Part shown: positions 744 through 28,703 of the stretch, in pieces
Layout of the letters: each line of letters begins with the position of its first letter
Numbering within the stretch: the first letter of the stretch is position 1
IMG/VR virus record: IMGVR_UViG_3300025536_000033
Location: 1-31,036 of that record
DNA from: a virus
Strand: one strand, 5' to 3'
Length of the DNA stretch: 31,036 nucleotides
Program-made: the position numbers and the translations under genes
Notes under the pieces: generated by a model
The model's input: the letters and a program-made list of their open reading frames with translations, nothing else
Told to the model about the DNA's origin: nothing
Databases searched by the model: none

Positions 744-760
744 GAGAAGGGATCCTTCTC
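744..760 (-). promoter_or_regulatory. Stem-loop immediately after the protease stop codon
   Basis: Perfect 7-bp inverted repeat GAGAAGG/CCTTCTC with a 3-base loop, starting at the last base of the TAG stop of the protease gene (760-762). No T-run follows on the minus strand, so it looks more like an mRNA 3'-end, pausing or processing structure than a full intrinsic terminator. The next gene has its own Shine-Dalgarno downstream of it. Confidence 0.45.
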
Positions 761-6220: not shown

Positions 6221-8044
6221 CTAAGCATCTGCTGAGCTGTGGTCACGCATCGGAGCGATAACGTCCGGACGAGGACGATCGGTCATTGAAACCACGAAGC
6301 TTAGAAGGATAGAGTGGAACGAGTCGTCGGTAGAGGATGGGCTCTTCTTGTAGACGTTCTCTCGACGCTGCTCGTTGAACTCCGAGAAGATGTTCAACAT
6401 GTCGTTGCCGAATGGATTCTGAAACTGTTCCCATGCCGGAAAGCGGAACACCGTACGCTTCTTGATCGCGTTGAAGATATCTGACATGACCTCGGTACGG
6501 TTGATGAGATAACGCTTCAGACCATCATCCCACTTCACCTTGGCGCTAGGCGTCGAGTACTGATACTTGACGATACGTTCCCAACCAAAGCGGTTGAGAA
6601 GCTTGTCATTGGGCCAGAAACCGCCACCGTAGTCACAACCTACGCGACGTACCGACCAAGTATCGATAATTCGCATCACCTCATCCATCATGACGTCAGG
6701 TTCCGATTCACGGCCTTCGAAACGCATAATCTTGAAGATCGTGAAGCGGTCCTGGAGGTAAGTGCCGAGGGACAGAACTGTGTATGTGTTCTCACCTGTA
6801 CCCCAGTCGATTCCAGCATAGATGGGGTACGTACCTGCGAGGTGGCGTTTGATTTTATCCTGGAACGCCTCGTCGAGACGGATGTTGGGATCGCAATTGT
6901 CCATCACGTCTTTACGCGTGAGAGGACGAGTGCCAGAGTCATACGAAAGTCCCAAGACCTCGTTGTGAAACTTCGCTCGAGGATAGGTCAGCTGGTTCTG
7001 GATGATTTCCGGCCATGGAATCCAGGGCACCATGATCTGTGGGATGCGGAAACCTTCATACGGCTTCGGAATGCGATGAATGATGCCGGGGTTCATGGCT
7101 ACCCACTGTGCTTGCGGATCATCCGGATTGATTTGGTTCTTGCACTTGTCGCAGACCAGACTGGTCTTGCCGATGTTCCCCTCGTCGAGAATGTTCCAGT
7201 ACACCTTCGAGATCTTTCCACCACCTACCATGATGGAATGGCGATGACAGGGAACTGCCCACTCGTTCTGGGTTGAGAACTCGGTCCAGTAATACTCGAT
7301 GGTGTTGTCGAGGGACTTCGGAGTTCCCGAGTACATATAGATCTTGTACGGGGAGTGCGATGCGCACTGCTCGATAATCGGAATGTTGTCCGTCATGATG
7401 TCCTGGAGCTCATCGATGCAGATGATGTCGGCAGGAATTCCACGAACACGGTCGGCGGACATGTAGCAGTAGCGCAGAGTGATCTGGCTACGGTTGATGA
7501 ACTTCTTCAGGAAGACGTTGTCTGAGAGCTTGGTCGTGGTCCATGACTTCAAATACTCGGACGTCTCGACGGGCTCTTTCAGACGGTCTTGAGAGAAGAC
7601 CTTCGTCTGCATGTTCGTCGGAGAGATGTACAGACAGTTCAGCGCCTGAACGATGCAGGCGTAGGACAGAAGCTTGTTTCCAAGGAGCGTCGACTTCTCT
7701 ACCTGTCGTCCGCACTTCAACAGGGTGCGTTTGGAGGGAGTGTCGTAAATCTGTCGAAGGTAGCGACGACCTTCAAAGGAGAATGGAACGTAGGTGTTCG
7801 CGATCTTGTCCGGCATGCGAACAGCGAATTCGACGAAGGTAGACGGCAAGATACCGGTAACTTCATCGCTCCTACCCGAAACAGGGCCTTCGAAATCTGG
7901 AACCTCTGGTTCGTAGTCCCACTCCTCACGAAGATCGATATCCTGAAACAGGATTTTTCCGTCGCTGTTGACCTTGAACTCGACATACGGCTGAGCTCTA
8001 TTGCGAAGATACTCGTCGTAGTTTTCAATGATGTTAAAGCTCAT
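6221..8044 (-). CDS. Terminase large subunit (DNA-packaging ATPase/nuclease)
   Basis: 607 aa. The ATPase domain has a Walker A-like loop GRQVEKST (112-119), with Glu where the consensus has Gly, a variant I recall from other large-phage terminases. Walker B is IICIDE (207-212), and SGTP (239-242) fits the coupling motif. A CxxC pair (298, 301) may bind metal. The C-terminal RNase H-fold nuclease has acidic residues at D413 (GIDWG), D471 (CDYGGG) and D573/D574 (STDDS). It pumps DNA through the portal and cuts concatemers. The frame opens at a TTG at 8056; the ATG at 8044 is preferred, although GAGGTGG sits unusually close to it. Terminase is separated from portal by about 18 kb that includes the polymerase and reductase genes, so packaging genes are not clustered. 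Confidence 0.95.
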   Translation of the reverse strand: MSFNIIENYDEYLRNRAQPYVEFKVNSDGKILFQDIDLREEWDYEPEVPDFEGPVSGRSDEVTGILPSTFVEFAVRMPDKIANTYVPFSFEGRRYLRQIYDTPSKRTLLKCGRQVEKSTLLGNKLLSYACIVQALNCLYISPTNMQTKVFSQDRLKEPVETSEYLKSWTTTKLSDNVFLKKFINRSQITLRYCYMSADRVRGIPADIICIDELQDIMTDNIPIIEQCASHSPYKIYMYSGTPKSLDNTIEYYWTEFSTQNEWAVPCHRHSIMVGGGKISKVYWNILDEGNIGKTSLVCDKCKNQINPDDPQAQWVAMNPGIIHRIPKPYEGFRIPQIMVPWIPWPEIIQNQLTYPRAKFHNEVLGLSYDSGTRPLTRKDVMDNCDPNIRLDEAFQDKIKRHLAGTYPIYAGIDWGTGENTYTVLSLGTYLQDRFTIFKIMRFEGRESEPDVMMDEVMRIIDTWSVRRVGCDYGGGFWPNDKLLNRFGWERIVKYQYSTPSAKVKWDDGLKRYLINRTEVMSDIFNAIKKRTVFRFPAWEQFQNPFGNDMLNIFSEFNEQRRENVYKKSPSSTDDSFHSILLSFVVSMTDRPRPDVIAPMRDHSSADA

Positions 8045-8076
8045 CCACCTCGACAATAGCAGAAACGGACAACAAA

Positions 8077-8514
8077 ATGCTCAGTTGGATCATGCTCCTC
8101 CAGGCTAGAGTTAGCTCCGCAACTGACGGCGGGGTTCAGATGTACGAAGTCGGTACGGCCGACCCCCTCAAGAAGCGAATCGCAGTCCGCTTTCGAGATC
8201 CCATTCCAGGGAGGGATTCGTGGATAGCTTTCCAAATCATTTCCCATGCTTTCGCCAGCGTGAACGACTGTATTATTCATCGAATCAAGAAGATTAACGA
8301 GACAGAATATAGCATTGAGGTGCTGACAAAAAACCACCGAAGAGATTCGGCGTTGGACCCTTTCGTGGACAACTGGAAATCGAAGGCTTCGAAGAAGAAA
8401 GAGGCCTTCATCAAATTCATGCGAGAGAAAGCCGAAGAACTCAAGAAAGAGGCAACGGATGAACCCGAGCCGACAAGCCCATTACCCACAGACGTTGATC
8501 TGTGGTGTCGATGA
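8077..8514 (+). CDS. Hypothetical protein with basic helical C-terminus
   Basis: 145 aa from the first ATG, not recognised. Residues about 20-90 look like a compact alpha/beta domain (IAVRFRDPIP, IHRIKKINETEYSIEVLTKN). Residues 95-130 are a strongly charged, Lys/Glu-rich helix with an acidic, Pro-rich end. The start is uncertain: the ATG at 8077 lacks a visible Shine-Dalgarno, and an ATG at 8140 (124 aa) preceded by a G-rich stretch is an alternative that leaves more room for the divergent terminase promoter. Its 3' end overlaps the RNase HII start by 56 bases in another frame, so the two are probably translated together. Confidence 0.65.
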   Translation: MLSWIMLLQARVSSATDGGVQMYEVGTADPLKKRIAVRFRDPIPGRDSWIAFQIISHAFASVNDCIIHRIKKINETEYSIEVLTKNHRRDSALDPFVDNWKSKASKKKEAFIKFMREKAEELKKEATDEPEPTSPLPTDVDLWCR

Positions 8515-11999: not shown

Positions 12000-12002
12000 G
12001 AT

Positions 12003-12032
12003 CTACAGCAGTTCTTTCTGCTGTAGTCCCTT
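12003..12032 (-). promoter_or_regulatory. Shine-Dalgarno plus looped-out hairpin before the C39-like gene
   Basis: On the minus strand AAGGGA (12027-12032) is followed directly by a perfect 9-bp stem (arms CTACAGCAG and CTGCTGTAG) with a 6-base purine loop (12003-12026), then ATC and the GTG start. Linear spacing from Shine-Dalgarno to start is 27 bases, too long unless the hairpin folds and loops out 24 of them. The hairpin includes the stop codon of the upstream 664-aa gene. The same logic is known for T4 gene 25. Confidence 0.6.
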
Positions 12033-13997
12033 CAATCCAGAAATCACCTGTTCCAGATTCTTCATTGCACGCTCGAGAGATCCCTCATCGACCTGCTTGA
12101 GACCCATGCGAGCTGCGGTCAGCATTTCTGCAAGCTTCTGGGCTGTGTCGTTGAGGTGAGTGATGTATCCAGCAAAGATGGAGAGGTTCTCTGGGTTGAG
12201 GAAGTTCAAGGAGAGGATGTTGTCGGCCGTCTCTGTGTCTTCGAGGGTAGAGGCGATCTTCACCAAATCACGACGGAGCTCGAAGGGGAACCGAGAAAGC
12301 AGTTCGGCCGCTTCTTTGGTTGCTTCAGCATGAACGTGATCAAGGGGAGTGATGGTGTTGAGCCCATCGATCTCTATGAGCTTACGACCATGTCCGGCTT
12401 CAGCGAGCTTCTCTCGAGCCATTTCCTGCGTGAGTCCTGCCGCAACTAGCATGAACTCGGCAGATGAGGGGGATAGCCACATCCGAACATCTTTGGCCAG
12501 CTTCTCGAATGGAGCTCCTTCGATATGGAACTCATCTTTGCTGGAAGCCTTCAGAAATCCACGACGAGGCATCGCCTGTGCTTCTTTGACTTGCTGAGCC
12601 GCTTGTGTCGACTTGGCGATGTGAATCGCCTGACCCAAAGGCGTGAAGAACATGTCGTCTGGAATGGCGTACTCGCCCTCGTTGATCTTCTGGATGGCCT
12701 GAAGACCTGGAGTCAGGTGAAGAGTCACTTGTTCACCGAATGGCGTCTGACAGATGAAGCCGTGGTTTCCCTGTGGATCTGTGACGGAGTTCTGTATGGT
12801 GACAGGAGGAAGTGCAACAGCACTACCATCTGACTTCACGAAGACGAATGAGCCATCTCCCTGAGGCTCTCCAATGGGGATCTCCGAGATGTCATTGCCG
12901 ACGCGAACGCCAACAATTTCGTCCTGAAGGCTGTACTGCTGACCGTTCGTAAAGAGTAGAAGACTCATCGGAGTCTGGTCGAAGTTCATGACAGGAAGAA
13001 CCCAACCAGGGGATTCTTGTCCGGTCTCTTCGACACGACACGAGTACTGACCAAATTCCTGGATGTCGACGGCTTGTGGAGCATCGAGAGGAGGGCTGGC
13101 CGAGTTAGTTCCTAGAGTGACGGCCTGGCCGGGCTGCATTCCTTGAACAGCTTCTGTGCCAGCCATGCCTTGAGCCTCGGACGGCGTGAAGTCCTTCTCC
13201 TGTGGAGAGAACGCCTGTGCGTTGGCCCATTTCACACGGAAGTTGCCGCTCCCGAGCTTGATGAACTGGACGACAGTAGGCTCGATGGATGCAACCAGAG
13301 CTGCCGCAGTTTTCTCGACCAAGACTCGGTTTCCTGTGGCAATAGCAGCGGCTGCCTTGGCAAAGGCTGGGTTGGTATCGAAAGCAACAGACAGTTGAGG
13401 ATCATTTGCCAGGCGATCTACGAACGCATTTACATCCTCGTCAGTCAGGGTGTGGGAAATAGCAGATGCAAGGGAAGCGAACTTGCCAAAACCAGCGCCA
13501 CCTGCTGCTGCGCCAGTAGTGACGCCAGATCCCTGCCCGTAGTTGGTACGCACGGGGGGATACAGGTTATCGACCATTCCTTGGTCGGTGGGCTTGCGAT
13601 CGGAGAGCTCGAATGTTCTGGGGTCGAAGAGACACTCACGGACACGCTCCTCACTGAGGGGAAACGCTTGATCACCGCTGAAGAACACGTCGAGCGGCTT
13701 CAACATACGATCGACGACAATGATGGGGATGACAACCGGAGTTGCCTGTCCCGTCTCAAGCCCTTCGCTCTTGTTCGTTACCTGAGCGCTACCATAAGCG
13801 TATCCACGCTCCGGGTTCGCTCTCTGGATGAGAACGTTGACGGTGTAGTCGGAGAGGAATGGCAGATACTTGAAGATCTCCGAGCTGACCTCCCTCTGCC
13901 AGTTGTCGACATTGTCCGACAGCTTGATCGGAGAAGCCAGCTTCGAGAAGGTGACTTTCGCTTGATCATCGAGGAACAGAGGAATGTTGAGACTCAT
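12003..13997 (-). CDS. Large putative virion (tail/baseplate) protein
   Basis: 664 aa, not recognised by family. The N-terminal 150 residues are alpha/beta. Residues 151-172 are a Gly/Ala/Thr-rich linker. Residues 185-245 are helical and include VEKTAAALVAS (EKTA at 228-231). Residues about 290-470 are beta-rich with QDEIVGVRVGN- and GFICQTPFGEQVTLHL-like strands, and the C-terminal 200 residues are helical (possible coiled coil near the end). Further K-x-A motifs occur (FSKLAS at 17-22, FGKFAS, FEKLAK, LVKIAS, AQKLAE). Its start overlaps the spike gene's stop as ATGA with AAGG upstream. Size, mixed architecture and neighbourhood point to a virion structural protein. Confidence 0.8.
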   Translation of the reverse strand: MSLNIPLFLDDQAKVTFSKLASPIKLSDNVDNWQREVSSEIFKYLPFLSDYTVNVLIQRANPERGYAYGSAQVTNKSEGLETGQATPVVIPIIVVDRMLKPLDVFFSGDQAFPLSEERVRECLFDPRTFELSDRKPTDQGMVDNLYPPVRTNYGQGSGVTTGAAAGGAGFGKFASLASAISHTLTDEDVNAFVDRLANDPQLSVAFDTNPAFAKAAAAIATGNRVLVEKTAAALVASIEPTVVQFIKLGSGNFRVKWANAQAFSPQEKDFTPSEAQGMAGTEAVQGMQPGQAVTLGTNSASPPLDAPQAVDIQEFGQYSCRVEETGQESPGWVLPVMNFDQTPMSLLLFTNGQQYSLQDEIVGVRVGNDISEIPIGEPQGDGSFVFVKSDGSAVALPPVTIQNSVTDPQGNHGFICQTPFGEQVTLHLTPGLQAIQKINEGEYAIPDDMFFTPLGQAIHIAKSTQAAQQVKEAQAMPRRGFLKASSKDEFHIEGAPFEKLAKDVRMWLSPSSAEFMLVAAGLTQEMAREKLAEAGHGRKLIEIDGLNTITPLDHVHAEATKEAAELLSRFPFELRRDLVKIASTLEDTETADNILSLNFLNPENLSIFAGYITHLNDTAQKLAEMLTAARMGLKQVDEGSLERAMKNLEQVISGLKGLQQKELL

Positions 13998-15106
13998 GTC
14001 TTAACCTTTGGGCTGATGTGAGAAGACGGAGGAATGACTGGAACGGTCAAAACCGGAAGTCCGGGTGTAGCGGCTGGGCCAATCAATGCTGCTGTGACAG
14101 TAGCCATCCACGTGAGCATATCTGGAGATGCACGAAGGGCAGGAAATTGACCGTCACCAAGCAATACCTGAGATCCTTTGATGCTTACTGCTCCGCCACT
14201 CATAGAAAGTGACAAGCCTCCCGCGGTTAGCGAGATCTGGGAAGCTTTGGCAGATAGAGCGGCCATCGATTCAATCGTGAGAGGACCAGTTACTGTGATA
14301 TTTGCCAGCCCTGTGATGACCGCGTTGAGATCACCCTCCACCTTCAACTCGAGCTTCTTGACCTTCAGGTTGAACTGACCGGCCTTGTCGATCTCGAGAG
14401 ATGTCTGGGTGATTCCTCCGCCTTTGTCACGAGTTAGCAGGCTGAGGATAGTGTTGTTGCCTTGGCCGTGGGAACCCATTTTCAGGATCGCGGCGGTCTT
14501 CTCGTTCGGGTCGTCTGCAAACTCCTTGGTGGACAAGGTGAACAAGCACATTTGATGACCGTCCGAATCCTCATCCTTCCTCGCCACATTCCACGTCAGG
14601 TCTCCTCCAGGGGTGTGGAGCTCGTAGTTCTCGGCATGGTCCTGGATGATGTTTCGAATCGGAATGAAGACCCTCTGACAGATAGCCGTGGATCCGATTT
14701 GAACCACCCCACCTCGACGTAGCGAGAGGAAATTTCCGTCTCTTGTCTCGAAGTTGAGGTCTCCTGGATTCAATAGCTTTCGGCCACCTCGGTAAGAACC
14801 ACCCTCATCGACCATAGTGAAGCCAAGAACGAAGCGATCTCTACCGTCTTCCGATGGAGTACAGACCCAACACGTAGCGCCTACCTCAGGGAGGAAGTTG
14901 ATGCCCTCTCCTTGGTTCTGATTGCAATAGGGAGTCATGAGAGGGATGTCAAAGCTGTTGGTGAAGCTGAACTCTGTCTTCACATCGACGGTGTAATCTC
15001 TAATGTTGACATTAACGATTCGCGCCCGTTCCACCAGGGCGCCCATGAGCTTGCTGGCGTCTTTCGCCTTGCTCTCCGACCGAATGGGGCTTGGATTAGC
15101 ACTCAT
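13994..15106 (-). CDS. Baseplate spike / gpV-like puncturing protein
   Basis: 370 aa. Residues about 25-100 match the OB-fold of phage baseplate spike proteins (P2 gpV, Mu gp45, T4 gp5 N-terminus): NVNIRDYTVDVKTEF, then GEGINFLPEVGATCWVCTPSEDGRDRFVLGF. Residues about 110-330 are repetitive beta strands of triple-helix type (NLKVKKLELKVEGDLNAVI in pieces, ITVTGPLTIES, ISLTAGGLSLSMSGG). The C-terminus is Pro-rich. It would form the trimeric spike under a contractile tail tube, which indicates a myovirus-type phage. EKTA occurs at 202-205. It sits between the homing endonuclease and the 664-aa virion protein, in one leftward transcript. Confidence 0.85.
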   Translation of the reverse strand: MSANPSPIRSESKAKDASKLMGALVERARIVNVNIRDYTVDVKTEFSFTNSFDIPLMTPYCNQNQGEGINFLPEVGATCWVCTPSEDGRDRFVLGFTMVDEGGSYRGGRKLLNPGDLNFETRDGNFLSLRRGGVVQIGSTAICQRVFIPIRNIIQDHAENYELHTPGGDLTWNVARKDEDSDGHQMCLFTLSTKEFADDPNEKTAAILKMGSHGQGNNTILSLLTRDKGGGITQTSLEIDKAGQFNLKVKKLELKVEGDLNAVITGLANITVTGPLTIESMAALSAKASQISLTAGGLSLSMSGGAVSIKGSQVLLGDGQFPALRASPDMLTWMATVTAALIGPAATPGLPVLTVPVIPPSSHISPKVKT

Positions 15107-15686: not shown

Positions 15687-18600
15687 TTAATATTTCCACG
15701 GCTCCTTAGAAGTTCCTTCTCCGAAGGTAGCTCCATAAGCGTAGGCTGGGATCGGGTGCGTACCATGGAGATTAGTCTTCCAGCCCTTGGCGGCACCTTC
15801 CATGATCGTCTCTTTCAAACGACGGAAATTGAGACGAGCCATCCAATCTTCCTGAGTATCGAGAACTGCCTGCTCCATGCCCTTCAGTACCGGCCTGCTT
15901 TCGATTCGGGCCTGCCCAGGCTCTAGATTGCGGTTGTGCTCGTCAACCAGCGTACGGCTGACTACGTCACCAGTCATGAACCCGGGATGATCTCCGGCAT
16001 CTCGAATCTGGGTAAGATTGGTCAATGAACGAACCACTGTTTCGATGTTACGCCGACGGACTCTCTCGTCCTTATAGATGCCGTCGTAGAGCTCGCTCAC
16101 CAAGTGATTCTGTACCGTAGGAATGTCGGTGAGGGGAAGTAGCTCACGAGGATTGATTGGCCCATCAGAGATGGGGGCGCCTTTTCGTACATTCATGCCA
16201 ACTGCAAGAGTCTTTCCGTCTTGGCCTTTCAGTTTCTTCGTTGCTGCTGCGAAGTGGCTCTGACCGTTGATGTAAATATTCCATCCGGTGGGGTCTTTTT
16301 CGATTTTGTCGATCCGTCCAGAGGTTCGAGCGAGGGTCGCTGAGTCGGGGAGTTTCGCCGGTAACTTGAGGAGCTCCTTGAGACGCCCGATACGAGAAGT
16401 AGCGCCAGCCCCGCGAGAACCGGAGACACCGCCAGTATGAAAGCTATCCATAGCCAACTGCATAGCCGGTTCACCGAGCGAGTGCCCAGCGATGACACCG
16501 ATATTGGTACCAACTTCATGTTCGACTCCGTTCTCGTTGAGACCGAAGCACTTCGAACACATTCCAAGACCGTGTTGGCATTTCAACGGGCTACGAACCT
16601 GGATTGATTCGATCCGGTTCTTCTTCAGCATCGCTGTGAGCTGTGGAGTGACGATTGTGTTTCGATCGAATTTCTGTCCGTTTACCACAAGAGGCTTCGC
16701 TAGGAGACGATCGTGAACATCGTCGTCCCCGATATCCATCGAAATGCCTTCCTTGGTGCCACAATCCTTGGAAACAACCATCTCAGGCATGACGAAATTG
16801 ATGATGTCCTTCGTAAGCATACCTGGCTCTGAGGTGCCTTCTGCACGCTGTAGAGTACCCATACGAGCTCCGTGAAGAGCCGTCCAATAGTCTCCAACAT
16901 CGAGACCTTCGGAGTAGGAACGCTTGACAGGAGTCGGAAGCTTACGACCTGTGGCGTCCTGCATGATCATCGGGGCGATATTCATCTGACGAAACTGCGA
17001 CCAGTTACCTCGAGCCCCGGAATCGACCATCGTGAAGATGTTGTTCTTACTCTTCTCGATTAGCGGTCGAGTGGCCTTATCGATTGCATGGCTGGCAGCA
17101 TCATAGATAGCGACGATCTTGTCTTCCTTTTCCTGCCTGGTTCCACTCCCTTTCGAGACCTTGTCTGCATCGTGATCAGCAGTAGCCAAGAGCGGATCAC
17201 GAATATGCTTGTGGACCTTCAGATCAGCAAGGTTGATAGAGAATCCCGCATCGTAGGAGTTCTTGTTTCCGAGATCCTTCAATCTGTCGACAGTGTTGGA
17301 GAACTTCTTCGGATCCTTTTTGCCGATCTCCGACAATAGGTCGAGAAGGCTGATCCTCTCGCCTCCGCCCTTTTTGGTGATAACAGCTTCTCGATTGTAT
17401 AGGAGCTCGTCAGATTGGAACTCCTTGGGCAACTGATTGGCCAAGAGCCTACGGCCATACGTAGTTGCCTTGCCATTCACGTGAATGACGTCGGTCGCAT
17501 GGATAGAGCCCTTGTCGTATTCCTTCTTAGCCAAGTCGAAAGTTGAGAATTTCTTTCCGCTATCGGTTCCCCACTTCGATAGAAGATGCAGACCCAACAA
17601 CGACTCCTGAGATGGGGCGTACATGATTCCGCCGTTTGTGGAGCTGAAGAGGTTATTCGACGGGAACATCCTCACAGATTCACGTACTGCGTCGTCTGTA
17701 AGAGGCAGGAAGGCGGACATCGTGTCGCCGTCAAAGTCAGCGTTGAAACCAGAGGTCACCAGCGGGTGGATGCGGATGGCCTTGCCATCTACCAGCTTCG
17801 GCTTGAAGGCCATGATCGAGAACTTATGAAGAGCTGGATCACGCTTCAGGAGAACTGGCCGACTTTCGAGGGCCTTTTCGAGGGCTCTCCATGCTGTCGG
17901 CGTTTCCTCTTTAAGGTCCTTACGAGCCTCGAGAGGAGACCTACCTACCTTCTTGAGTTCGCGGAGAACGAAAGGCTTGTAGAGCTCCATCGCAGCACTC
18001 CTGGGAATGCCCACGTAATCAAGATGCATTCCTGGTTCAGGGATGATTGTGGAGCGCATCGAGAGCTCTTGGCGTCGCTTCATGATCTTCTTTTGGAAGA
18101 ATCCATGTTTTGGACTCGAACCTGCGATGGTATCGAGGATGCCCTTGAGCTGACGTGACGATTCGTACTGAGGAACACCACCAACCCCCATCGTTGCCTT
18201 GAGGAGATCGTACAACTCTTCCCGCATTGGCTGTTCGAGCTCGGGTAGATCCTTGACGCCCTCCTTCAGCTTGTTATTGACGATGCCGAGATCCTTGTAG
18301 AGGTGGTTGACGTCGTCGAATCGGAGAGAGCCGTCTGGCATTGGCACAATCGGGCGGAACACCGGAGGAATCACTGGGACGTGGTTCAGGATGTACGCTT
18401 CACTCGGCTTCATATCGAGGTTGTCGAGAGCTCGTAGGTACTTCGCCTTTCTATTGGCGTGGTTCAAGGCACTACCACGTAGATTGGGCAGCTCTGCCAT
18501 CACTTTGGAGAGCTCCTTCTTCACGTTGATACCGTCGAGGATCTCTTTGATGGCCTCTCCGCCAGTCTTGCCGTTGTGATCCTTCTTGCCTTTCACGATG

Positions 18601-21600
18601 TCTTCGAAATCGACGAACTTCATGCCAGTGAGAATGACAGCAGGTCCAGGCTTCTGAGCTGTACCAACAAACACAGGGCTCGGCATCGGCTTCGCCAAGG
18701 AGATATGAGCCCAGTTAAGTCCTTTACCAGGTTCGTTGGCGTCGGGAAGACCGCCAGTGATCTTGGGATCGAAGAGCCCCTTCTCGAGCTCCTTGGCATC
18801 CTTTCCACGAAGCACACGTCCTGGATCCTCGATCTCACCATTGGAGAGGTCTAGAACGCCCTTGTCCGTGAGAGGAACAAGCTGCATATGGTGGCCAGAC
18901 TTGTTCACATCGACGCCAAGACCTTTCAAGTACGATTCGAACTTGCGATAGGCGAAGGTTGGGCGAGGAGGAGGTAGAGGCTGTCCCATCTGTACGCGAT
19001 GCCAAAAGTCAACGTGGGCTTGCGGGTTCAGGTTTTCATCTACCTGCTGATCAGCCTTGTAGGTCGCCATCTCTTTCAAATTCTTGCGGGCTCCGTGAGC
19101 GAGCAGAGCATAGAACTCGAGCTGGCCGATACCTTGACCAGGATTCTCAGCACCAGTTCCTTTGGGGGCTCTATCTATCGTGTAGTTGCCGGTGCTGCGA
19201 ACCGCCAATTTCTTCTCGACCTGGTGCTTGAGCTTCATGATGTACTGATCACCAGTCAGCACGTCTCCAAGCTTCTTCTGTGTTGAAGGGTCGTAGATCT
19301 CTTCAGTGTCCTTGAGGTTATGATCCTTGAGGTCCTTCTGAATCATCTCCGTGTAGTCGAGGTTGGCTCCTCCGAAGTTGTTCACGATATACGATTTGCC
19401 AGTCTTCTTGGCAATCTTCGACGCAGCAGTCTCGAGCATCTGACCGAGGTTGATACGGCTAGGTACGCCAGAGGGATTCATCAGAACTTCGACATGCCCT
19501 CCATCAGCTGCACCGATACGAGGCATTTCGTGGTCCGGAATGATCTGGGTGACAATAGACTTGTTGCCGTGGCGTCCAACGATCTTGTCTCCAACCTCGG
19601 CAGGCTCGTCAGTACGAACGTGGACGATGGCGCCTTTACCGTTGGGAAGTTTCTGAACCTTCACAACTTCACCAGACCCACTACCGTCCCAGGAAATACT
19701 ACGATCCGTGCGATCGAAGAGCCCCTTATCCAGCCGAGAGGCAAGACGAGAGACCATTCCAAGGTTTTCCTTCTTACCAACCGCCGCGATGAGTAGATCT
19801 CCGGACTGAACCTTCTCACCAATACGGATGACTCCATCGTCATCTAGACGATCCAGCTGAGTCTTGCCATACTTCTTGGAAGTGACGGACGAGAATGCCT
19901 GGAACTTCTTCTTGTTCATGGAGTCCTTCGAGGGATCAATCTCGACGGACTTTCGGTGGACGTGTTCTGAGGTCAACTTCTTGGCGGCACTCTCGGAGAT
20001 GACGATTCCATCTTCGAAGTTGTAGCCCTTGTACGGCATGTAGCTGACTCGGAGGTTAGTTCCGAGAGCGAGGTTGCCATCTTTGGTGAAGTTCGTATCA
20101 GCGAGAAGGTCTCCTGCCTTCACCTCTTGCCCTACTGTGACTCCTGGTGTGGAGTGCATGAACGTCTTGGAGTCGTTCAAAGGGAAGTGATTGTAGATCT
20201 GTACCTCGTGCTTCTTGCCCTTCTTGTCCTGGATGATGATCGAATCAGCGAAGCGATTCTTCGTCTCCTCCGTCTTGATAGCAACTACTTTGCCGTCGAC
20301 AGGAGCTGTATGAGAGAAAGGTGTACCGATGAGGTTCTCCCACGTCGTCTTGCCGCCCTGAACCTGAACCAGCGGAACTTCTCGATCTCGAAGGCCCACA
20401 GCCTGAGAAGCCTGACGAGAGGCCGTCATGGTTCGGTTGCCTTGGTTGTTCTGGAGGAATGGAATGAGGTTGGTGGCCTCATCGAACAACTGATGGGCCG
20501 ATACGAACATGTATCGGGCATCCTTCATCGGGCGTAGAACGATCTCTCCCGTGGCCGGATCTTTCATCTTCACTTTACTGGCGATAGCTACAGGCTTGCC
20601 ATCCACCATCTTCACCTGATCCGGAAGTAGAACGTATTCGGAATGGAGCTCGGCAGGAGTCACTCCGTTCTTGCCATCTCTGAGCTTGTTCTCTTTCAAA
20701 TCGTAGACAAGAGCTCGCGCCTCGTTGCCGTCCTTCGTCACCCCCATCGGAAGCGTCAGACTGATGCCAGTACGAACACTTTCTGGCGTGTGGATTGGAT
20801 CGAGGAACCCCATGTGAGTGGGGTTGATGAGCTTCATGGCCTTGTTGAGCGTACGGTCGCTCTTGATACCGCCTTCGTCACCACCGAGGATGGTGGTGGA
20901 GCGGTAGTTAGCCAGCATCTCGAGCGGATTCGTCTGTTCCGGATTCTTGGAGAGAGACGAGCTCGTGAAGATCTGCTTGATAGGTTTCGAGAACAGCTCA
21001 GCGGAGAGAATGTCTCTAACCTTCTCTTGTCGGTCGATGTTGTTACCGACCTTGAGTTTGATGATGCGTTGAGTGGAAGGTTTGGCGAGCCGCTCTTTCA
21101 AGAAGTCATCGATACCAGTCAGCTTCTTGAAGATGAGTGAGTTTCGATCGTCTGGAGGAGCTTCACCGCTGGCAACGGCAAGGATTCTCTTGGATGCCTG
21201 AAGAAGAGCTTCTCCAGTTACATTGTCATAGGCCTTGCCGAGAGTGTGTTTGGTAGTGTCGGGCGCCAGCTTTGCGTTATGGAACTCATTGAACACAGCA
21301 GAGGCAATCGCGTCGTAAGAGGTTCCATCTGCCTTCACACCTCTCTTGGAGATGCCTTTATAGAGCTTCTGAATATCTTGCTCGATCTTGCCGGTGGCGT
21401 TCGCCTTGTAGATATCTGCACCCCACGCCTTCTTCATGTCCTCGTCCTGAACTCCTAGAGTTTTCAGAATGGGATAGAGATTGACGTTGGTCGTACCCCA
21501 CCGGAACTTGAACTTCTTGTTCTCTGGACTGAACGGAATCTTGAGACGAGATTCCTTAGCGAAGGTGTTGCCCGCCAGAGCGAACTCAGTCTCGAGGTCA

Positions 21601-21980
21601 CCGTTGGCCTTGATCTGCGAGTACACACCGGGCTTGAGACGCCACAGGTTGTCTACCTGCCATTCGCTTCCATCGACGATGTAGCTATAGCGATCTGTGG
21701 GCTTGGGTAGCGTGAAGATTTTGGTCTTCGAACGGTCAATAATCTGTCCTGTGGTCTTGTCCACGAGACTGATATCAGCCACGACGTTAGCGCCCCATGT
21801 ACGAGCGGTCTCTTTGGCACGCTCTTGACTGCGAAGATCGCCTGCTTGCGCAGGACTATCATCTACGGTCACTTCGTTCAACACCAACTTCCGAGATCGA
21901 CCTTCGATCGGAAATGTGCCCTTGACTGCATCGACAGCTCCATCTTGGAGCTCTTTCCACGTAATTGCTGGCGTAGACAC
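15687..21980 (-). CDS. Fused beta-beta' DNA-directed RNA polymerase, single chain
   Basis: 2097 aa. The beta part (about 1-1025) has LDPIHTPE (393-400), GYNFEDGIVISE (652-663), GDKIVGRHGNK (797-807, with the catalytic-site lysines) and GVPSRINLGQMLET (838-851). It ends with FESYLKGLGVDV, matching the end of bacterial beta. The beta' part (about 1045-2097) starts with SNGEIEDPGRV and has VPVIPPVFRPIVP (1201-1213) and the Mg-binding NADFDGD (1413-1419). It also has VDSGARG, a second zinc site (C1740, C1801, C1808, C1811) and the trigger helix ending in FHTGG (H1848). The beta' N-terminal zinc domain is absent. E. coli beta plus beta' total about 2750 aa, so this is compact. It starts with GTG, with AAGGAGGG seven bases upstream. 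No sigma, alpha or omega gene is visible. It likely transcribes phage genes. Confidence 0.97.
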   Translation of the reverse strand: MSTPAITWKELQDGAVDAVKGTFPIEGRSRKLVLNEVTVDDSPAQAGDLRSQERAKETARTWGANVVADISLVDKTTGQIIDRSKTKIFTLPKPTDRYSYIVDGSEWQVDNLWRLKPGVYSQIKANGDLETEFALAGNTFAKESRLKIPFSPENKKFKFRWGTTNVNLYPILKTLGVQDEDMKKAWGADIYKANATGKIEQDIQKLYKGISKRGVKADGTSYDAIASAVFNEFHNAKLAPDTTKHTLGKAYDNVTGEALLQASKRILAVASGEAPPDDRNSLIFKKLTGIDDFLKERLAKPSTQRIIKLKVGNNIDRQEKVRDILSAELFSKPIKQIFTSSSLSKNPEQTNPLEMLANYRSTTILGGDEGGIKSDRTLNKAMKLINPTHMGFLDPIHTPESVRTGISLTLPMGVTKDGNEARALVYDLKENKLRDGKNGVTPAELHSEYVLLPDQVKMVDGKPVAIASKVKMKDPATGEIVLRPMKDARYMFVSAHQLFDEATNLIPFLQNNQGNRTMTASRQASQAVGLRDREVPLVQVQGGKTTWENLIGTPFSHTAPVDGKVVAIKTEETKNRFADSIIIQDKKGKKHEVQIYNHFPLNDSKTFMHSTPGVTVGQEVKAGDLLADTNFTKDGNLALGTNLRVSYMPYKGYNFEDGIVISESAAKKLTSEHVHRKSVEIDPSKDSMNKKKFQAFSSVTSKKYGKTQLDRLDDDGVIRIGEKVQSGDLLIAAVGKKENLGMVSRLASRLDKGLFDRTDRSISWDGSGSGEVVKVQKLPNGKGAIVHVRTDEPAEVGDKIVGRHGNKSIVTQIIPDHEMPRIGAADGGHVEVLMNPSGVPSRINLGQMLETAASKIAKKTGKSYIVNNFGGANLDYTEMIQKDLKDHNLKDTEEIYDPSTQKKLGDVLTGDQYIMKLKHQVEKKLAVRSTGNYTIDRAPKGTGAENPGQGIGQLEFYALLAHGARKNLKEMATYKADQQVDENLNPQAHVDFWHRVQMGQPLPPPRPTFAYRKFESYLKGLGVDVNKSGHHMQLVPLTDKGVLDLSNGEIEDPGRVLRGKDAKELEKGLFDPKITGGLPDANEPGKGLNWAHISLAKPMPSPVFVGTAQKPGPAVILTGMKFVDFEDIVKGKKDHNGKTGGEAIKEILDGINVKKELSKVMAELPNLRGSALNHANRKAKYLRALDNLDMKPSEAYILNHVPVIPPVFRPIVPMPDGSLRFDDVNHLYKDLGIVNNKLKEGVKDLPELEQPMREELYDLLKATMGVGGVPQYESSRQLKGILDTIAGSSPKHGFFQKKIMKRRQELSMRSTIIPEPGMHLDYVGIPRSAAMELYKPFVLRELKKVGRSPLEARKDLKEETPTAWRALEKALESRPVLLKRDPALHKFSIMAFKPKLVDGKAIRIHPLVTSGFNADFDGDTMSAFLPLTDDAVRESVRMFPSNNLFSSTNGGIMYAPSQESLLGLHLLSKWGTDSGKKFSTFDLAKKEYDKGSIHATDVIHVNGKATTYGRRLLANQLPKEFQSDELLYNREAVITKKGGGERISLLDLLSEIGKKDPKKFSNTVDRLKDLGNKNSYDAGFSINLADLKVHKHIRDPLLATADHDADKVSKGSGTRQEKEDKIVAIYDAASHAIDKATRPLIEKSKNNIFTMVDSGARGNWSQFRQMNIAPMIMQDATGRKLPTPVKRSYSEGLDVGDYWTALHGARMGTLQRAEGTSEPGMLTKDIINFVMPEMVVSKDCGTKEGISMDIGDDDVHDRLLAKPLVVNGQKFDRNTIVTPQLTAMLKKNRIESIQVRSPLKCQHGLGMCSKCFGLNENGVEHEVGTNIGVIAGHSLGEPAMQLAMDSFHTGGVSGSRGAGATSRIGRLKELLKLPAKLPDSATLARTSGRIDKIEKDPTGWNIYINGQSHFAAATKKLKGQDGKTLAVGMNVRKGAPISDGPINPRELLPLTDIPTVQNHLVSELYDGIYKDERVRRRNIETVVRSLTNLTQIRDAGDHPGFMTGDVVSRTLVDEHNRNLEPGQARIESRPVLKGMEQAVLDTQEDWMARLNFRRLKETIMEGAAKGWKTNLHGTHPIPAYAYGATFGEGTSKEPWKY

Positions 21981-22187
21981 CTGGGCGCCCTCCTTAGAGG
22001 TTGCAGGTTATGTTGAGAACTTTGGGATTCCCTATGTCTCGCGCTCGAGACGGTCTCTGGGAAGCCCGGTACCGGACAAGAGTAGTTGACATCTAGAGCC
22101 CACGTCAACAAATCACCCCAAAGTAGGCGATAAGAAGGTAGAGGCCGTAACGCCTTCTTCTTTGGTGAAGTGGCTTTGGAGGACTCA
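21981..22187. promoter_or_regulatory. Divergent regulatory region between RNA polymerase and Cys-rich island
   Basis: 207 bases without a gene. It contains the polymerase Shine-Dalgarno (AAGGAGGG, minus strand, 21988-21995) and a GTCTCG/CGAGAC stem with 4-base loop (22036-22051). The latter overlaps GAGACGGTCTC (22047-22057). A perfect 10-bp palindrome CCGGTACCGG (22066-22075) and an inverted repeat GTTGAC/GTCAAC with 13-base spacer (22085-22109) follow. An extended hairpin (22118-22165) ends the set. It must hold promoters for both directions. No convincing sigma-70 -10 box follows the TTGACA at 22086, so the promoters may be of another type. Confidence 0.6.
22118..22165 (+). promoter_or_regulatory. 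Structured 5' leader hairpin of the rightward Cys-rich island
   Basis: Two stacked stems: CCAAAG (22118-22123) with CTTTGG (22160-22165), and AAGAAGG (22132-22138) with CCTTCTT (22153-22159). The stems are directly adjacent on the 3' side, with an 8-base bulge on the 5' side and a 14-base loop. It ends 12 bases before the GGAGG of the first small gene, so it could affect translation or act as an attenuator. No riboswitch family is recognised. Confidence 0.45.
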
Positions 22188-23563: not shown

Positions 23564-23887
23564 TCAGCCGCAGTCAGGGTCACCCTCTTCGATATTGCAC
23601 CCATGAGCTTCGGCTCGACGCTTCCACTCGTCTCTTTCTTTGATCAGAGCATCGATCCTGTCGTCGAGCTGCTTCAGAGTGACGTGATACGCCGGATTGT
23701 ACTTGGCAGCTTTCAATGCCGTTTCCAGGTCAGTCGAAAATTCAGCATCCACCGAACGTCTCCGTTGAGCGTACTCCCAGAGAAGATCCTGAGCAGACGG
23801 ATCCTTGATGCTGAGTGGAACCTTTCCTCTTGGAGTTGTGGGATACTTGTCCGATTGGAATTCCCCATCGATGATATGACTACCCAT
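23564..23887 (-). CDS. Small conserved-looking phage protein of unknown function
   Basis: 108 aa from the ATG at 23887, which overlaps the reductase stop (TGATG). The frame is open further upstream, but those starts lie inside the reductase gene. The pattern DGEFQSDKYPTTPRGKVPLS...DPxAQDLLWEYAQRRRSVDAEFSxDLExAL looks like a small protein I recall from other large phages, with no known function. The C-terminus is a charged helix (QLDDRIDALIKERDEWKRR) ending in CNIEEGDPDCG. It is translationally coupled to the reductase, so a nucleotide-metabolism accessory role is possible. Confidence 0.78.
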   Translation of the reverse strand: MGSHIIDGEFQSDKYPTTPRGKVPLSIKDPSAQDLLWEYAQRRRSVDAEFSTDLETALKAAKYNPAYHVTLKQLDDRIDALIKERDEWKRRAEAHGCNIEEGDPDCG

Positions 23888-26586
23888 CAGCCGCATCCTG
23901 TCGTGTCGCCGCAACCGATGCATGTGTAACAGGAACCGGTTCGCTTGGTTGGTCCGCCACAAGAGCGGCACGGGTCACCAGATAGATCGACCACCGGAAT
24001 TGGTGACGATTTTGTACGAGCCACAATGTCCTGAGGTTCTTCAGAAGTTGTGGCAGTTACCGCTGGAACTCCCAAGTGCTCGATCTCGAGGAAGCGAGCC
24101 ACGTAATCCAGAATGCTCTTGGCTACGGGAATGGGAGTGTATCCGGTAAATCCGGAAGGCTCGAATCGAACACCCTTGAAAGTCTCTACCAGGTCATCCA
24201 GGTGAGCTCCGTGTTGTAGAGCCTTCGAGAACGACTGCGCAAAAGATTCGATCATCCCTGCGATAAAGCTTCCTTGCTTGGAGACTCGAATGAAGATCTC
24301 TCCGACTCGTTCGTCTGGATAGAGACCGACAGTGAGGTAACCCTTCACATCTCCCACACGGAATTTGTGGGTATAGCCCTTTCGTGTGACGGCCAGCCTT
24401 CGTTTCGTTCCCCAAAGAACTGGCTGGTCAGTCTTCTTCTCTTCCGTCTTGACGGAAATAGGTTGCGAGCCCTTGCATCCATCACGGTAGATGGCGAGGC
24501 ACTTGAGACCTTTCTTCCATGCCCGCATGTAGATATTAGCGATGTCTTCGACAGTTGCCGTCTTGGGCATGTTGACGGTCTTCGAAATACCTCCAGAGAG
24601 GTACGGCTGAACAGCCGCCATCATATCCACGTGGGCTTCTGGCCTGAGGGCATGATCACCCAGAGCCTCGGCGAAGATTGGCCCGTGTTCTTTCTTGAAT
24701 TGCGGACAATCATGGATGGTGCGGTGATCCGTGATGTGCTTGAGGATCGCCTTCACCTCGAGATCGGTGTACTTGAGGTTCTCGAGGGCAGGCTTGATGG
24801 TGTTATTCGGAATCGTCAGAAAGCCTTCCCCAACGGCCTTCTTGAGCGTGACGACTCCCAACATGGGTTCTACTCCAGTCGTGTCGGCATTCATGAGAAA
24901 AGAAATCGTGCCGGTTGGTGCGAGTACCGTCGTCTGTGCGTTGCGGTATCCGAATTCTTTTCCCACACGATAGGCCAATTCCCAGGCTTCGACTGCGGCG
25001 TAGTAGAGCTCGCCAAAGATCCCTTCGTCTTCCAATGGGAACGTTTCGTGGGCTTTGTCGTAGTGATTCGAGATGACCTTGGTCATGTCCTCTTTGTTGA
25101 TCTCGAATTCCGAAAAGGGACCCTTCACGTTCGCCAGCTCGGCGGATTGCATATAGGCCCGTCCACCCATTAATGCCGTGATAGCTGCTGCCACCAGTCG
25201 ACCTTCGTCGCTGTCGTAGGGCAATCCCCAGAAGGTCAACAGAGCCCCGAGATTGGTATATCCAAGGCCTAGCGTTCGGTACTTGTGACTGTTATCGGCG
25301 ATGGCCTTCGTTGGATACGATGAGGCATCTACTAGAATCTCTTTGGCCGTGATGGTAATATCTACGGCCTGCTGGAACGATCGAACATTGAATCCTTCCT
25401 TGGTAGCGAACTTGAGGAGGTTCAATGAGCCAAGATTGCATGCCGTGTCATCGAGGAAGAGATACTCGGAGCACGGGTTGCTTGCGTTGATACGTCCCGA
25501 GTTCGGGCTCGTATGCCAACGATTGGTTTGGGTGTCGAACTGAATACCGGGGTCACCGCAAACCCATGCGGCTTCTGCCATCGCATTGAAAATCTTGCGA
25601 GCCGAGTAATGACGGTGAATCTGTCCCGTCTTCAACATCGTGTGCCACTTATCGTCCCTCTCTACTGCCTCCATGAAGGCATCACTGACGCGAACGGAGT
25701 GGTTGGCGTTCTGGAATCCAGTTCGATCATAGGCATTACCTGCGACATTGAACTCGACCGAGTACTTTCCACTCTCTACCAGAGCCATTGCTTGGGCCTC
25801 TGCGTCTGCTTTGCAGTAGATGAATCCTGGAGTTCCATTCTGCTGCTCGAGAATGTCGGGGTGATCGACGTTGAGTACAACCATCTTGGCTGCCCGACGC
25901 GTCGTTCCTCCAGACTTGGTGATACCAGCAAAGGCGTCGAAGCCCTTCATGAAGGAGACTGGTCCAGAAGCGAATCCTCCGCCTGTGAGAGTTTCCCACG
26001 AGCTCCGTAATGGAGAGAGATTAGATCCTGTTCCGGAACCTCCCTTGAATAGCATCACCTCGTTGCGAGCAAGGTCCATGATGCTTTCCATGGTGTCATC
26101 GACGGACTGGATGAAACACGCCGAGCACTGAGGAGCTTTGTCCTGAGTCACTCCGACATTGAACCAGACCGGAGAGTTGAACGCGTACATGCCATGAACT
26201 AGCAAATACAAAAGTTCGTTGTGGAATGTTTGACGAGCTTCAAGATCGAGGAAGACTCCCTGCTTGGCTCCCTGTTCGGTGATCCAAAAAGCGACTCGTG
26301 CAAACATCTGCTTGGCCGAGCGCTCCTTGATTCCGTTGATGATCCGGAAGTACTTCTCGGCAACAATACCGACGGCGTTGTCTTCCCACGTTGCTGGAAC
26401 TTCGACGTTGTCCTGACGAAACTTCTCTTTGCCACCCGACCCTTTGATGACGGCGTCCTTGATCACCCACTCGATTGTATCGAGAGGATTGATCCCTGGT
26501 TTGGTGAATCGGCGTTCGAAGGACAGCCCGGGGCTTTTTGGCTGAACTGGAACAACCGTTTTCTGAACGAGCTCTGACGTATCCAT
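23887..26586 (-). CDS. nrdJ: Class II (B12-dependent) ribonucleotide reductase
   Basis: 899 aa. It reduces ribonucleotides to deoxyribonucleotides using adenosylcobalamin and supplies dNTPs for phage DNA. Key residues: N370, C372 and E374 in NPCSE, the thiyl and acid residues of the active site; redox pair C157 (SACFIQS) and C383 (TACNLGS); phosphate-binding APTGTISF (556-563); GGTTRRAAKMVVL (226-238). Residues about 726-815 match the C-terminal TSCPD domain. The tail has C873, C876, C886, C889, C892 and C898, used for reduction by thioredoxin-like partners or zinc. No N-terminal ATP-cone is evident. No intein breaks the active-site motifs. AAGGAGG lies 10 bases before the ATG. It needs oxygen neither for activity nor activation, and the host must provide B12. 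Confidence 0.95.
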   Translation of the reverse strand: MDTSELVQKTVVPVQPKSPGLSFERRFTKPGINPLDTIEWVIKDAVIKGSGGKEKFRQDNVEVPATWEDNAVGIVAEKYFRIINGIKERSAKQMFARVAFWITEQGAKQGVFLDLEARQTFHNELLYLLVHGMYAFNSPVWFNVGVTQDKAPQCSACFIQSVDDTMESIMDLARNEVMLFKGGSGTGSNLSPLRSSWETLTGGGFASGPVSFMKGFDAFAGITKSGGTTRRAAKMVVLNVDHPDILEQQNGTPGFIYCKADAEAQAMALVESGKYSVEFNVAGNAYDRTGFQNANHSVRVSDAFMEAVERDDKWHTMLKTGQIHRHYSARKIFNAMAEAAWVCGDPGIQFDTQTNRWHTSPNSGRINASNPCSEYLFLDDTACNLGSLNLLKFATKEGFNVRSFQQAVDITITAKEILVDASSYPTKAIADNSHKYRTLGLGYTNLGALLTFWGLPYDSDEGRLVAAAITALMGGRAYMQSAELANVKGPFSEFEINKEDMTKVISNHYDKAHETFPLEDEGIFGELYYAAVEAWELAYRVGKEFGYRNAQTTVLAPTGTISFLMNADTTGVEPMLGVVTLKKAVGEGFLTIPNNTIKPALENLKYTDLEVKAILKHITDHRTIHDCPQFKKEHGPIFAEALGDHALRPEAHVDMMAAVQPYLSGGISKTVNMPKTATVEDIANIYMRAWKKGLKCLAIYRDGCKGSQPISVKTEEKKTDQPVLWGTKRRLAVTRKGYTHKFRVGDVKGYLTVGLYPDERVGEIFIRVSKQGSFIAGMIESFAQSFSKALQHGAHLDDLVETFKGVRFEPSGFTGYTPIPVAKSILDYVARFLEIEHLGVPAVTATTSEEPQDIVARTKSSPIPVVDLSGDPCRSCGGPTKRTGSCYTCIGCGDTTGCG

Positions 26587-26657: not shown

Positions 26658-28703
26658 CTAGCCGAGCGATACTTGACGACGGGGTGGCTTGTTTTGCGGC
26701 AGAGGGCTCTGCAACGGATTGAGGTTGTCCGTCTGGGATCCCTTGTCTCCCTGCATCATTGCCAGTACTTGGCCATACAATTGCCGATTGGTGGCCTGCA
26801 TATTCATCAATGCGAGCTGCTGATCCATGCCCTGCATTTTGCTGATCTCCGTAGCAGCTCTGCGAGCCAGATACAAGACGTTCATCTGTCCGCCTGCCTG
26901 GGTCATGTTTAGAGGAGATTGGAGCTCCGTCGGGATTCCTTCTGCGGGAGCGCCATCAGCGTTCTCTGGATAAGCCGTTGTCCCCTCCGGCATTCCGGGA
27001 GCGGCCTCCGTACCTTGCATCGGTTGCTGATCCGATCCGGAAGCCGGGGGACCACCAGCCGGCATTGTGTCTCCGAGCATGGCCGGATCTCCATCCATGG
27101 TCGCGCCACCCGTACTGGATCCGAAGCCTCCAGGATTCTGTGGCATACCGCCTGCCATTGGACCCATGATCTTCATCGCCTGTGCTTGGTAGCGGGCTTG
27201 AACGATCTGAAGTTCTCCCTGTAGCTGGGCATTTGCCAGCTGCATCTTGCGGTTGTTCTCGAGCTGCTTGGAAAGCTCGGCGTTCTTGTACTTCTCTTCC
27301 TGAACGAGGTCGAGCTCCAGTTCGTTGAGGAACGTAGTGTCGGAGATCTTCATCGCTTGGTTTGCCTGCATCATGAGGGCAGACCGCTGGAGATCATCAG
27401 CCATACGGAACCGAGTGAACTCGATGTCCGGAGCCGGCCAATCCATGTAGTTGGCGATCCGCTTCAGAACGAAGTCACGACAGAACGTGAGGAGATCGGT
27501 TCGATAGCCCTGGAACTGGTTCTCGAGCATTCGCATCGAGACATTCGAGCCGGAGTACTGAAGGCCACCGAATACGAACTCGATGGGCACGTGCATGCCA
27601 GCCACGATTTGCTCAGACCAGGCACGCATCTCCTGGTGGAGCATGAGCGCCTTGCCCTCACCACCGACAGTCTCGTTACCGATTGGGATAGGCAGAATCG
27701 GGATATAGTTCTGGTCGAGCTTCCACTTCTCGATTTCCGCCTCGATACGACGCCGCCACAGACTGAGGTCGATTGTCGAGTACGGATCCGAGGTTCCGCT
27801 TCCGGCCTGCGGGAACAGAATTCGGAGAGGGACGATATATTGATTGGCGATACACTCCTGCGCCTTCCGGAGGATCTGAAGGTAGTAACTGTCCTTCAGA
27901 ACGGGAAGAATGAGGGGCATGCCCCATCCCATGTCCTTCTGAGCGATCGTCGGGCGCTTGAGATGGCACATCTCCCCTTCACGCATCTTGAGAGTCTTAG
28001 ACTCCCTGAGAGCGAGAATGAACTCATTGGGGATCTTCTCGATGACGTGTCGCTTCCCCATCATGATGTCGTTCTTCAACGATGTGGGGATATCGAAGAA
28101 GTAGTCCGTAGAGTTCGTAACCTCGTTGTGTTCGATGGTGATGTGTTCTGGATTCCACCGAACGATCTTGATGCCTTTGAGGTCCTTGATGTTGAGGTCT
28201 TCGACACCAGCTTCGCCTGTGATTTGGCAGGCTGGACAGGACAGGTAGAAACGGTAGTTGCGGAACTTGTAGATCGCGTTCTTGGCGAGCTGCTTGGCCT
28301 TGCAGGTTGAGCAGATGAGTGATTTCTGAATGGGCCAGTGAATCGTGATGAATGCGTTGCCGTAGCAGAAGTAGTCGAGACCTACCTCGATAAGGGTGTT
28401 ACGGAGCTTCAATCCGGTATCAATCAGCTTCATCCACTTGTCGCGAAGAACCGAATCGGCTTCCTTGACGAGAATCTGAGTGACTGGATACTCGGCCATC
28501 TTGTAGGTCACCGCGTTGATCAGCGGATTGACCATGAAGTAGTACCGACACCAGCGAAACATCTGCTTGACGCTGGTGGGCAGATACGTATGCCCAATGT
28601 CGAAGAAGGGAGACGGGTACCGCATGGTCCCGCTGTTGCCTTGGTTGTGGACGTTGTCGAAGCGAGTAGTGCTTCCGACAAAACCACTTGCGGTTGCACT
28701 CAC
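26658..28703 (-). CDS. Portal protein
   Basis: 681 aa. It forms the ring through which DNA enters and leaves the head. Support: length, large-phage portal-like N-terminal region (FRWCRYYFMVNPLINAVTYKMAEYP, 49-73, in pieces), IEVGLDYFCYGNAFI (105-119), the MGWGMPLILPVLKDSYYLQILRKAQECIANQ-type stem region, and the helical 440-500 segment. Residues 131-159 hold a CSTC...CPAC zinc knuckle inserted in the body. After about residue 500 the protein is Met/Gly/Pro-rich and disordered, with a last helical stretch near 600-660. It starts with GTG overlapping the upstream stop (GTGA), with GGAGGTG 5 bases upstream. Confidence 0.88.
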   Translation of the reverse strand: MSATASGFVGSTTRFDNVHNQGNSGTMRYPSPFFDIGHTYLPTSVKQMFRWCRYYFMVNPLINAVTYKMAEYPVTQILVKEADSVLRDKWMKLIDTGLKLRNTLIEVGLDYFCYGNAFITIHWPIQKSLICSTCKAKQLAKNAIYKFRNYRFYLSCPACQITGEAGVEDLNIKDLKGIKIVRWNPEHITIEHNEVTNSTDYFFDIPTSLKNDIMMGKRHVIEKIPNEFILALRESKTLKMREGEMCHLKRPTIAQKDMGWGMPLILPVLKDSYYLQILRKAQECIANQYIVPLRILFPQAGSGTSDPYSTIDLSLWRRRIEAEIEKWKLDQNYIPILPIPIGNETVGGEGKALMLHQEMRAWSEQIVAGMHVPIEFVFGGLQYSGSNVSMRMLENQFQGYRTDLLTFCRDFVLKRIANYMDWPAPDIEFTRFRMADDLQRSALMMQANQAMKISDTTFLNELELDLVQEEKYKNAELSKQLENNRKMQLANAQLQGELQIVQARYQAQAMKIMGPMAGGMPQNPGGFGSSTGGATMDGDPAMLGDTMPAGGPPASGSDQQPMQGTEAAPGMPEGTTAYPENADGAPAEGIPTELQSPLNMTQAGGQMNVLYLARRAATEISKMQGMDQQLALMNMQATNRQLYGQVLAMMQGDKGSQTDNLNPLQSPLPQNKPPRRQVSLG

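Follow-up and report, generated by a model that had tools for sequence, protein, structure and literature searches.

Can one phage gene encode the whole catalytic core of a bacterial-type RNA polymerase, and if so, where did the gene come from and when in infection would its product act? Textbook cellular RNA polymerase is an alpha2-beta-beta'-omega assembly, in which alpha is needed to bring the large subunits together. The locus that raises the question lies in a linear fragment of a large tailed phage, which makes up the entire IMG/VR record analyzed here (31,036 bases; hereafter the window). From its letters, an initial annotation had reported that the main motifs of both large subunits lie in one unbroken 2097-aa frame, beta then beta', and had weighed two origins for it: a cellular polymerase captured independently, or a phage lineage of its own.

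Architecture and predicted fold of the polymerase

The frame was recovered with exactly the coordinates first reported, and its strand, which had gone unstated, is minus. All four catalytic motifs (GYNFED, GDKIVGRHGNK, NADFDGD, and GEPAMQLAMDSFHTGG) fall within this same frame. Its features are as follows:

15687..21980, minus strand: single-chain beta-beta' RNA polymerase, 2,097 aa (GTG at 21980, stop at 15687)
21989..21995, minus strand: Shine-Dalgarno sequence AAGGAGG, 8 nt 5' of the polymerase GTG
18897..21980, minus strand: beta half, residues 1 to ~1028 (alignment to E. coli RpoB; Foldseek against bacterial beta chains)
15690..18896, minus strand: beta' half, residues ~1029-2097 (alignment with E. 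coli RpoC)
20010..20027, minus strand: GYNFED, residue 652, equivalent to E. coli beta E813/D814 (motif and alignment)
19560..19592, minus strand: GDKIVGRHGNK, residue 797; K799 and K807 correspond to E. coli beta K1065 and K1073
17724..17744, minus strand: NADFDGD magnesium-binding triad, residue 1413; D1415, D1417, and D1419
16548..16763, minus strand: second zinc site; C1740, C1801, C1808, and C1811 correspond to E. coli C814, C888, C895, and C898
16428..16475, minus strand: trigger loop GEPAMQLAMDSFHTGG, residue 1836; H1848 corresponds to E. coli H936

Pfam models matched the 2,097-aa protein in the order Rpb2_3, Rpb2_6, Rpb1_1, Rpb1_2, Rpb1_3, Rpb1_4, and Rpb1_5, with E-values of 2.9e-59 for Rpb2_6 (the best) and 4e-26 for Rpb1_2. 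Domain order and motifs agree, bearing out the view that the phage encodes a single-chain beta-beta' polymerase with a near-cellular catalytic core, and a chance origin of the frame and its motifs is excluded.

Individual residues were compared in an alignment of E. coli RpoB and RpoC with 31 fused phage sequences, the window's included, and 24 split ones. D1415, D1417, D1419, R1380 (beta' R425 in E. coli), and H1848 were invariant across all 31 fused and 24 split sequences, as were the equivalents of beta R678, R1106, D814, K1065, and K1073, and every catalytic residue checked was invariant or nearly so. The second zinc site was conserved across the aligned family, with one cysteine substituted in one relative. 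The N-terminal zinc-binding domain of beta' was absent from every aligned family member (31 fused, 24 split), and none of the E. coli insertions SI1, SI2, and SI3 was present in the window protein. As aligned, the end of beta (~1028) joins the start of beta' (~1029) directly, without a linker, and the beta' half lacks ~19 N-terminal residues relative to E. coli RpoC. Two parts that bind sigma in bacteria, the flap tip and the beta' clamp helices, are represented in the window protein by segments of similar length whose key residues differ. Of the positions relevant to rifampicin sensitivity, that of E. coli S531 is a threonine in all aligned family members, and the residues at D516 and H526 are mostly different.

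Structure prediction had been put forward with the initial annotation as a check on it. An AlphaFold2 model of residues 560-1500, built with 48 natural sequences, reached a pLDDT of 87.7 and a pTM of 0.78, and its top Foldseek matches in the PDB were the beta and the beta' chains of bacterial enzymes (E ~1e-34, ~500-540 columns each). Judging by the sequence alignment, the matches to beta chains presumably span the earlier portion of the model and those to beta' chains the later one. The core of the polymerase is predicted to fold as a bacterial beta chain followed by a bacterial beta' chain.

Relatives, genomic surroundings, and ancestry

The initial annotation had named a read-level error joining two genes as the outcome that would overturn it. 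The identical unbroken architecture is found in the independent viral contigs L002 (84% identity), L004 (71%), and L003 (61%), and wider scans of viral contigs returned at least hundreds of relatives, which are common in metagenomes. Among 200 non-redundant viral contigs that were compared, 105, including these three, carry a complete beta-beta' fusion, which rules out an assembly artifact or read-level join. Another 82 encode beta fused to the N-terminal part of beta' (beta-beta'N), with the C-terminal part (beta'C) separate or not seen; beta'C lay in the same locus in 50, and the break in beta' always fell near residue 1501-1507. The remaining 13 were truncated, recoded, or split elsewhere, and none of the 200 had beta and beta' as two genes divided at the beta/beta' junction. 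Because the scans were seeded with the window's family and the best 80 of each were taken, other architectures may exist. L013 and similar 'Staphylococcus/Listeria phage' wastewater records at first seemed to be phages with split beta and beta', but L013 was rejected as bacterial contamination because it has the zinc finger of cellular enzymes and falls among Bacilli. A match in the Acinetobacter 'phage' MD-2021a was likewise set aside as a bacterial rpoBC operon.

The surroundings of the polymerase gene are those of a virion operon:

26658..28703, minus strand: portal protein, 5' of the polymerase in the same operon
23887..26586, minus strand: class II ribonucleotide reductase, between portal and polymerase (Pfam)
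13994..15106, minus strand: baseplate/spike-like protein, just 3' of the polymerase; homologue downstream in 72/200 loci
12003..13997, minus strand: conserved structural-operon protein, function not assigned; homologue downstream in 86/200 loci
6221..8056, minus strand: terminase large subunit (PHROG 675)
760..2976, minus strand: protease-like head protein in which an InPase-family domain (PF18823) is embedded (profile matches)

A same-strand portal homologue lay upstream of the polymerase in 163 of the 200 loci, at a median distance of 1.1 kb; 168 loci have 3 kb or more of sequence on that side. The best matches of the window portal and of the capsid of a relative (PHROG 2522) were the isolated phages Arash and D69/D148/D181; these were also among the best for the terminase and were matched by the window polymerase. 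Because portal, capsid, terminase, and polymerase all match the same phages, the polymerase gene belongs to a virion operon that is characteristic of a single phage lineage.

A phylogeny with cellular sequences, also suggested at the outset, was inferred with FastTree (82 taxa) and with IQ-TREE under LG+F+G4 (46 taxa). Bacteria were sampled from Pseudomonadota, Bacillota, Actinomycetota, Chloroflexota, and Atribacterota, with Campylobacterota, Rickettsiales, archaea, and eukaryotes outside the sample. In both trees the sampled bacteria formed one fully supported clade, and the phage family was set off by a branch of 0.9-1.4 substitutions/site. The window polymerase grouped with ~200 phage homologues outside all sampled bacteria, with L002 and then L004 nearest to it, and the split-beta'C clade received full support. 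The root inside the phage family differed between methods: FastTree placed L270, a fused form, first (support 0.48), whereas in IQ-TREE the cellular branch joined close to the split clade (58). Yersinia phage YerA41 and Cobetia phage Carin-5, in which beta' and beta are encoded apart, formed another long branch. Because cellular beta' is undivided, the simplest history would be that beta and beta' fused first and that the split clade later underwent a single fission.

A phage might recently have taken up a host rpoB-rpoC pair and fused it, as the pair is fused in Helicobacter or Wolbachia; this would account for the near-cellular motifs and for a beta-then-beta' order that is the same as in the rpoBC operon. 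Such a history is scarcely credible, however, given that bacteria of several phyla fall together in a single fully supported clade apart from the long phage branch, that the beta' zinc-binding domain is missing throughout the aligned family, and that among the matches listed in the genome scan no bacterial contig exceeded 31% identity. On its placement outside the five bacterial phyla sampled in the FastTree and IQ-TREE phylogenies, we reject a recent cellular capture. Of the two origins considered initially, the distinct phage lineage is upheld by the trees, by synteny, and by the portal, terminase, and capsid ancestry common with Arash and D69.

Sigma partner, virion evidence, and proposed role

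Because the Pfam sigma region 2 model alone missed most members of the sigma family, a family-specific profile was built. With this profile, a sigma-70-family factor was found in 25 of 28 large polymerase-bearing records (E 1e-145 to 4e-33), or in 21 of 24 once the four seeds were left out. The profile matched no sigma gene in three of the 28 large fragments, and none in the 31-kb window. The factor aligns with solved SigA/SigB/RpoS across regions 2-4 (E 6.5e-17), with regions 2, 3, and 4 collinear and region 3 matched by 17 of the 18 members. When sigma alone was used for a collection scan, with a subset of the sequences because the alignment of 18 was too diverged, nine contigs were recovered, and eight of these carry the polymerase. 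Exactly one beta core was present per genome (24/24 records). Neither RpoA (alpha) nor omega was matched in the family records by sequence profiles whose controls did match; since this absence is judged by sequence profile only, host alpha could still be recruited.

Published virion proteomics of Salmonella phage Arash bear on where such an enzyme would be found. The Arash polymerase is ~32% identical to that of the window and has beta'C split off, with Gp206 being beta-beta'N and Gp216 beta'C. Gp206 was the top virion protein with 3,516 spectra, above the capsid protein, Gp216 had 1,210 spectra, and Gp10 had 467 spectra and 24 unique peptides (PMC10585845). The family sigma profile matches Arash at 11901-12449, which identifies Gp10 (11892-12596) as the sigma factor. 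A second Arash sigma, Gp196, does not appear in the text of the virion table (PMC10585845). Virions containing both core and sigma are documented for this isolated relative only.

We propose, with a probability of roughly 0.75, that the window encodes a single-chain RNA polymerase that depends on sigma, travels in the virion, and needs no host core subunit to transcribe phage genes. One polypeptide would provide the entire catalytic core (beta plus beta') of a bacterial-type RNA polymerase, as a member of a large and old family of tailed-phage polymerases that may have no need for alpha or omega. The core would pair with a phage-encoded sigma-70-family factor, and the resulting holoenzyme would be packaged in the virion, injected with the DNA, and used from the start of infection, so that transcription of phage genes would owe nothing to the core enzyme of the host. 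With a single chain, alpha-assisted assembly of beta and beta' would be unneeded after delivery, and phages of the split clade may redirect the same core later via a second sigma. For the window's own phage, activity, sigma binding, packaging, and host independence are predicted. A wider proposal, which we offer tentatively and at somewhat less than even odds, is that this widespread clade injects a minimal two-protein, alpha-free holoenzyme of fused core and dedicated sigma, that the fusion is ancestral to the clade, and that the lineage branched off no later than about the time when the sampled bacterial phyla separated, and so preserves a bacterial-type enzyme able to work without alpha and omega.

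Many phages that encode an RNA polymerase leave early transcription to the host enzyme, and the window polymerase might instead be synthesized in the infected cell to serve the middle and late genes. Such a timing would fit the second sigma of Arash and the split clade, Gp196, lying outside the virion table, and a late role is needed anyway because there is only one core per genome. Virion detection is also known only for Arash, whose authors allow that abundant non-structural proteins may be carry-over (PMC10585845). We nevertheless consider a non-virion enzyme unlikely: the Arash polymerase has the highest spectrum count of any virion protein, its own sigma is found in the same virions, and the gene lies between those for the portal and baseplate-like proteins. 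The same abundance could suggest a structural role, with a decayed or repurposed polymerase-like protein built into the particle. This is the least probable of the alternatives, as the catalytic aspartates, lysines, and arginines and the trigger-loop histidine are all retained, dN between the window and L002 is just 0.11 (dS is saturated), and the sigma factor is co-inherited.

If the virion-packaged polymerase is confirmed, no simpler sigma-dependent enzyme of its kind would be known than this natural single-chain beta-beta' core, which combines a cellular-like active site with a sigma of its own. It would be directly usable in structural and mechanistic work, and its family would offer an independent deep branch for studies of RNA polymerase evolution. 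It would explain an odd published result, namely that the top Arash virion protein is an RNA polymerase, and it predicts host-independent early transcription in a large group of uncultured phages. The dedicated sigma, the virion-packaging evidence, the split-beta'C sister clade, and a probable overlap with the mReC lineage, considered below, go beyond the initial annotation.

Comparison with known polymerases

The phiKZ and AR9 enzymes are also double-barrel phage polymerases, one of which is carried in the virion. They comprise four to five polypeptides, in two sets per phage, without a sigma-70-family subunit (PMC7598289, PMC7824862), whereas the window polymerase is one chain and its family has a single core per genome and a sigma. 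Enzymes of the crAss type and YonO place both catalytic barrels on one chain, as here, but are much more diverged, whereas ordinary Rpb1/Rpb2 profiles find the window polymerase readily. Polymerases of the crAss type are carried in virions. Cellular rpoB-rpoC fusions, as in Helicobacter and Wolbachia, likewise run beta then beta' in one chain; unlike them, the window family has no beta' zinc-binding domain and lies outside the sampled bacteria (a sample without Campylobacterota and Rickettsiales). Polymerase, portal, terminase, and capsid all place Arash and Vibrio phages D69/D148/D181 in the family of the window, and Arash and D69 have the same type of sigma. They differ from the window in that beta'C has a gene of its own while beta-beta'N is one chain, at ~30-32% identity, and Arash and D69 encode a second sigma near the polymerase.

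The multimeric RNAP-encoding Caudovirales, or mReC (Weinheimer & Aylward 2020, PMC7481178), are likewise tailed phages in IMG/VR with polymerases of near-cellular sequence that carry NADxDGD and form a clade apart from bacteria. The window polymerase has the beta and beta' homologies (by Pfam in place of COG models), the NADxDGD motif, and the complete frame of at least 800 aa by which mReC were defined, and it too forms part of a clade distinct from the bacteria sampled. Because the published criteria should have captured it, the window family very probably overlaps the mReC lineage, which is compared here by its published description. Among mReC contigs, a PF07068-type capsid was reported in 8/97 and a PF03237-type terminase in 17/97 (PMC7481178). 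PF07068 had no match in 26 relatives of the window, in a search that, like that with PF00940, had no positive control; the best Pfam match of the window terminase was PF05876, with PF03237 only below its cut-off. The mReC paper describes beta and beta' subunits, and its main text makes no mention of fusion in mReC, a dedicated sigma, or virion packaging (PMC7481178). Later work reports a viral gene for 'beta and beta prime' that roots at the base of mReC (PMC10159854). Phage polymerases of this sort are as such already known, and an earlier description may exist outside the openly licensed literature; what may be new is the architecture, the sigma partner, and the link to the Arash proteome.

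Insertions and breaks in the polymerase genes of relatives

Several relatives recovered in the homologue scans (contigs or records with L-numbers as handles) have polymerases that are interrupted by intein-like insertions, sited at active-site motifs:

L002 polymerase (L002:9965-17359; 84% identical to that of the window): after GRHGNK, 341 aa, with canonical C...SGN/S ends
L278 polymerase: after GDK
L254, L255 and L277 polymerases: after TPE
L015, L226, L242, L244, L245, L396 and L400 polymerases: after NADFDGD

Further breaks in the polymerase gene were found at residue ∼1131 in L219 and residue ∼511 in L215, with the pieces lying 1-2 kb apart; these are possibly introns or homing elements. 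Two records filed under phages, OR844998 (L013) and CAKLQH020000005 (L202), were rejected as such, each being a bacterial chromosome contig with rpoBC, the bacterial gene pair for beta and beta'.

In-frame TGA codons

The polymerase genes of L335 and L339 contain 11 and five in-frame TGA codons, respectively, and those of L088 and L324 one each. These genes are otherwise intact, and the codons suggest that TGA is recoded in some members of the lineage.

Accessory genes and the PF18823 domain

Two genes of the window lie beside the polymerase or among structural genes:

15108-15686: zinc-finger, HNH-endonuclease-like protein (judged by eye), adjoining the polymerase stop, downstream
8459-9082, + strand: RNase HII, flanked by structural genes on the opposite strand

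The HNH-endonuclease-like protein, possibly a free-standing homing endonuclease, has a homologue in only two relatives; the RNase HII is kept in 10.

In the split clade, the phage relatives in which beta'C is a separate gene, one part (L005, L006, L007, L008, L264 and their relatives) carries an insertion of ∼140-160 aa within beta, with a match to InPase family PF18823 (L005 and L008 tested). The window has this domain in its protease-like head protein (760-2976, - strand).
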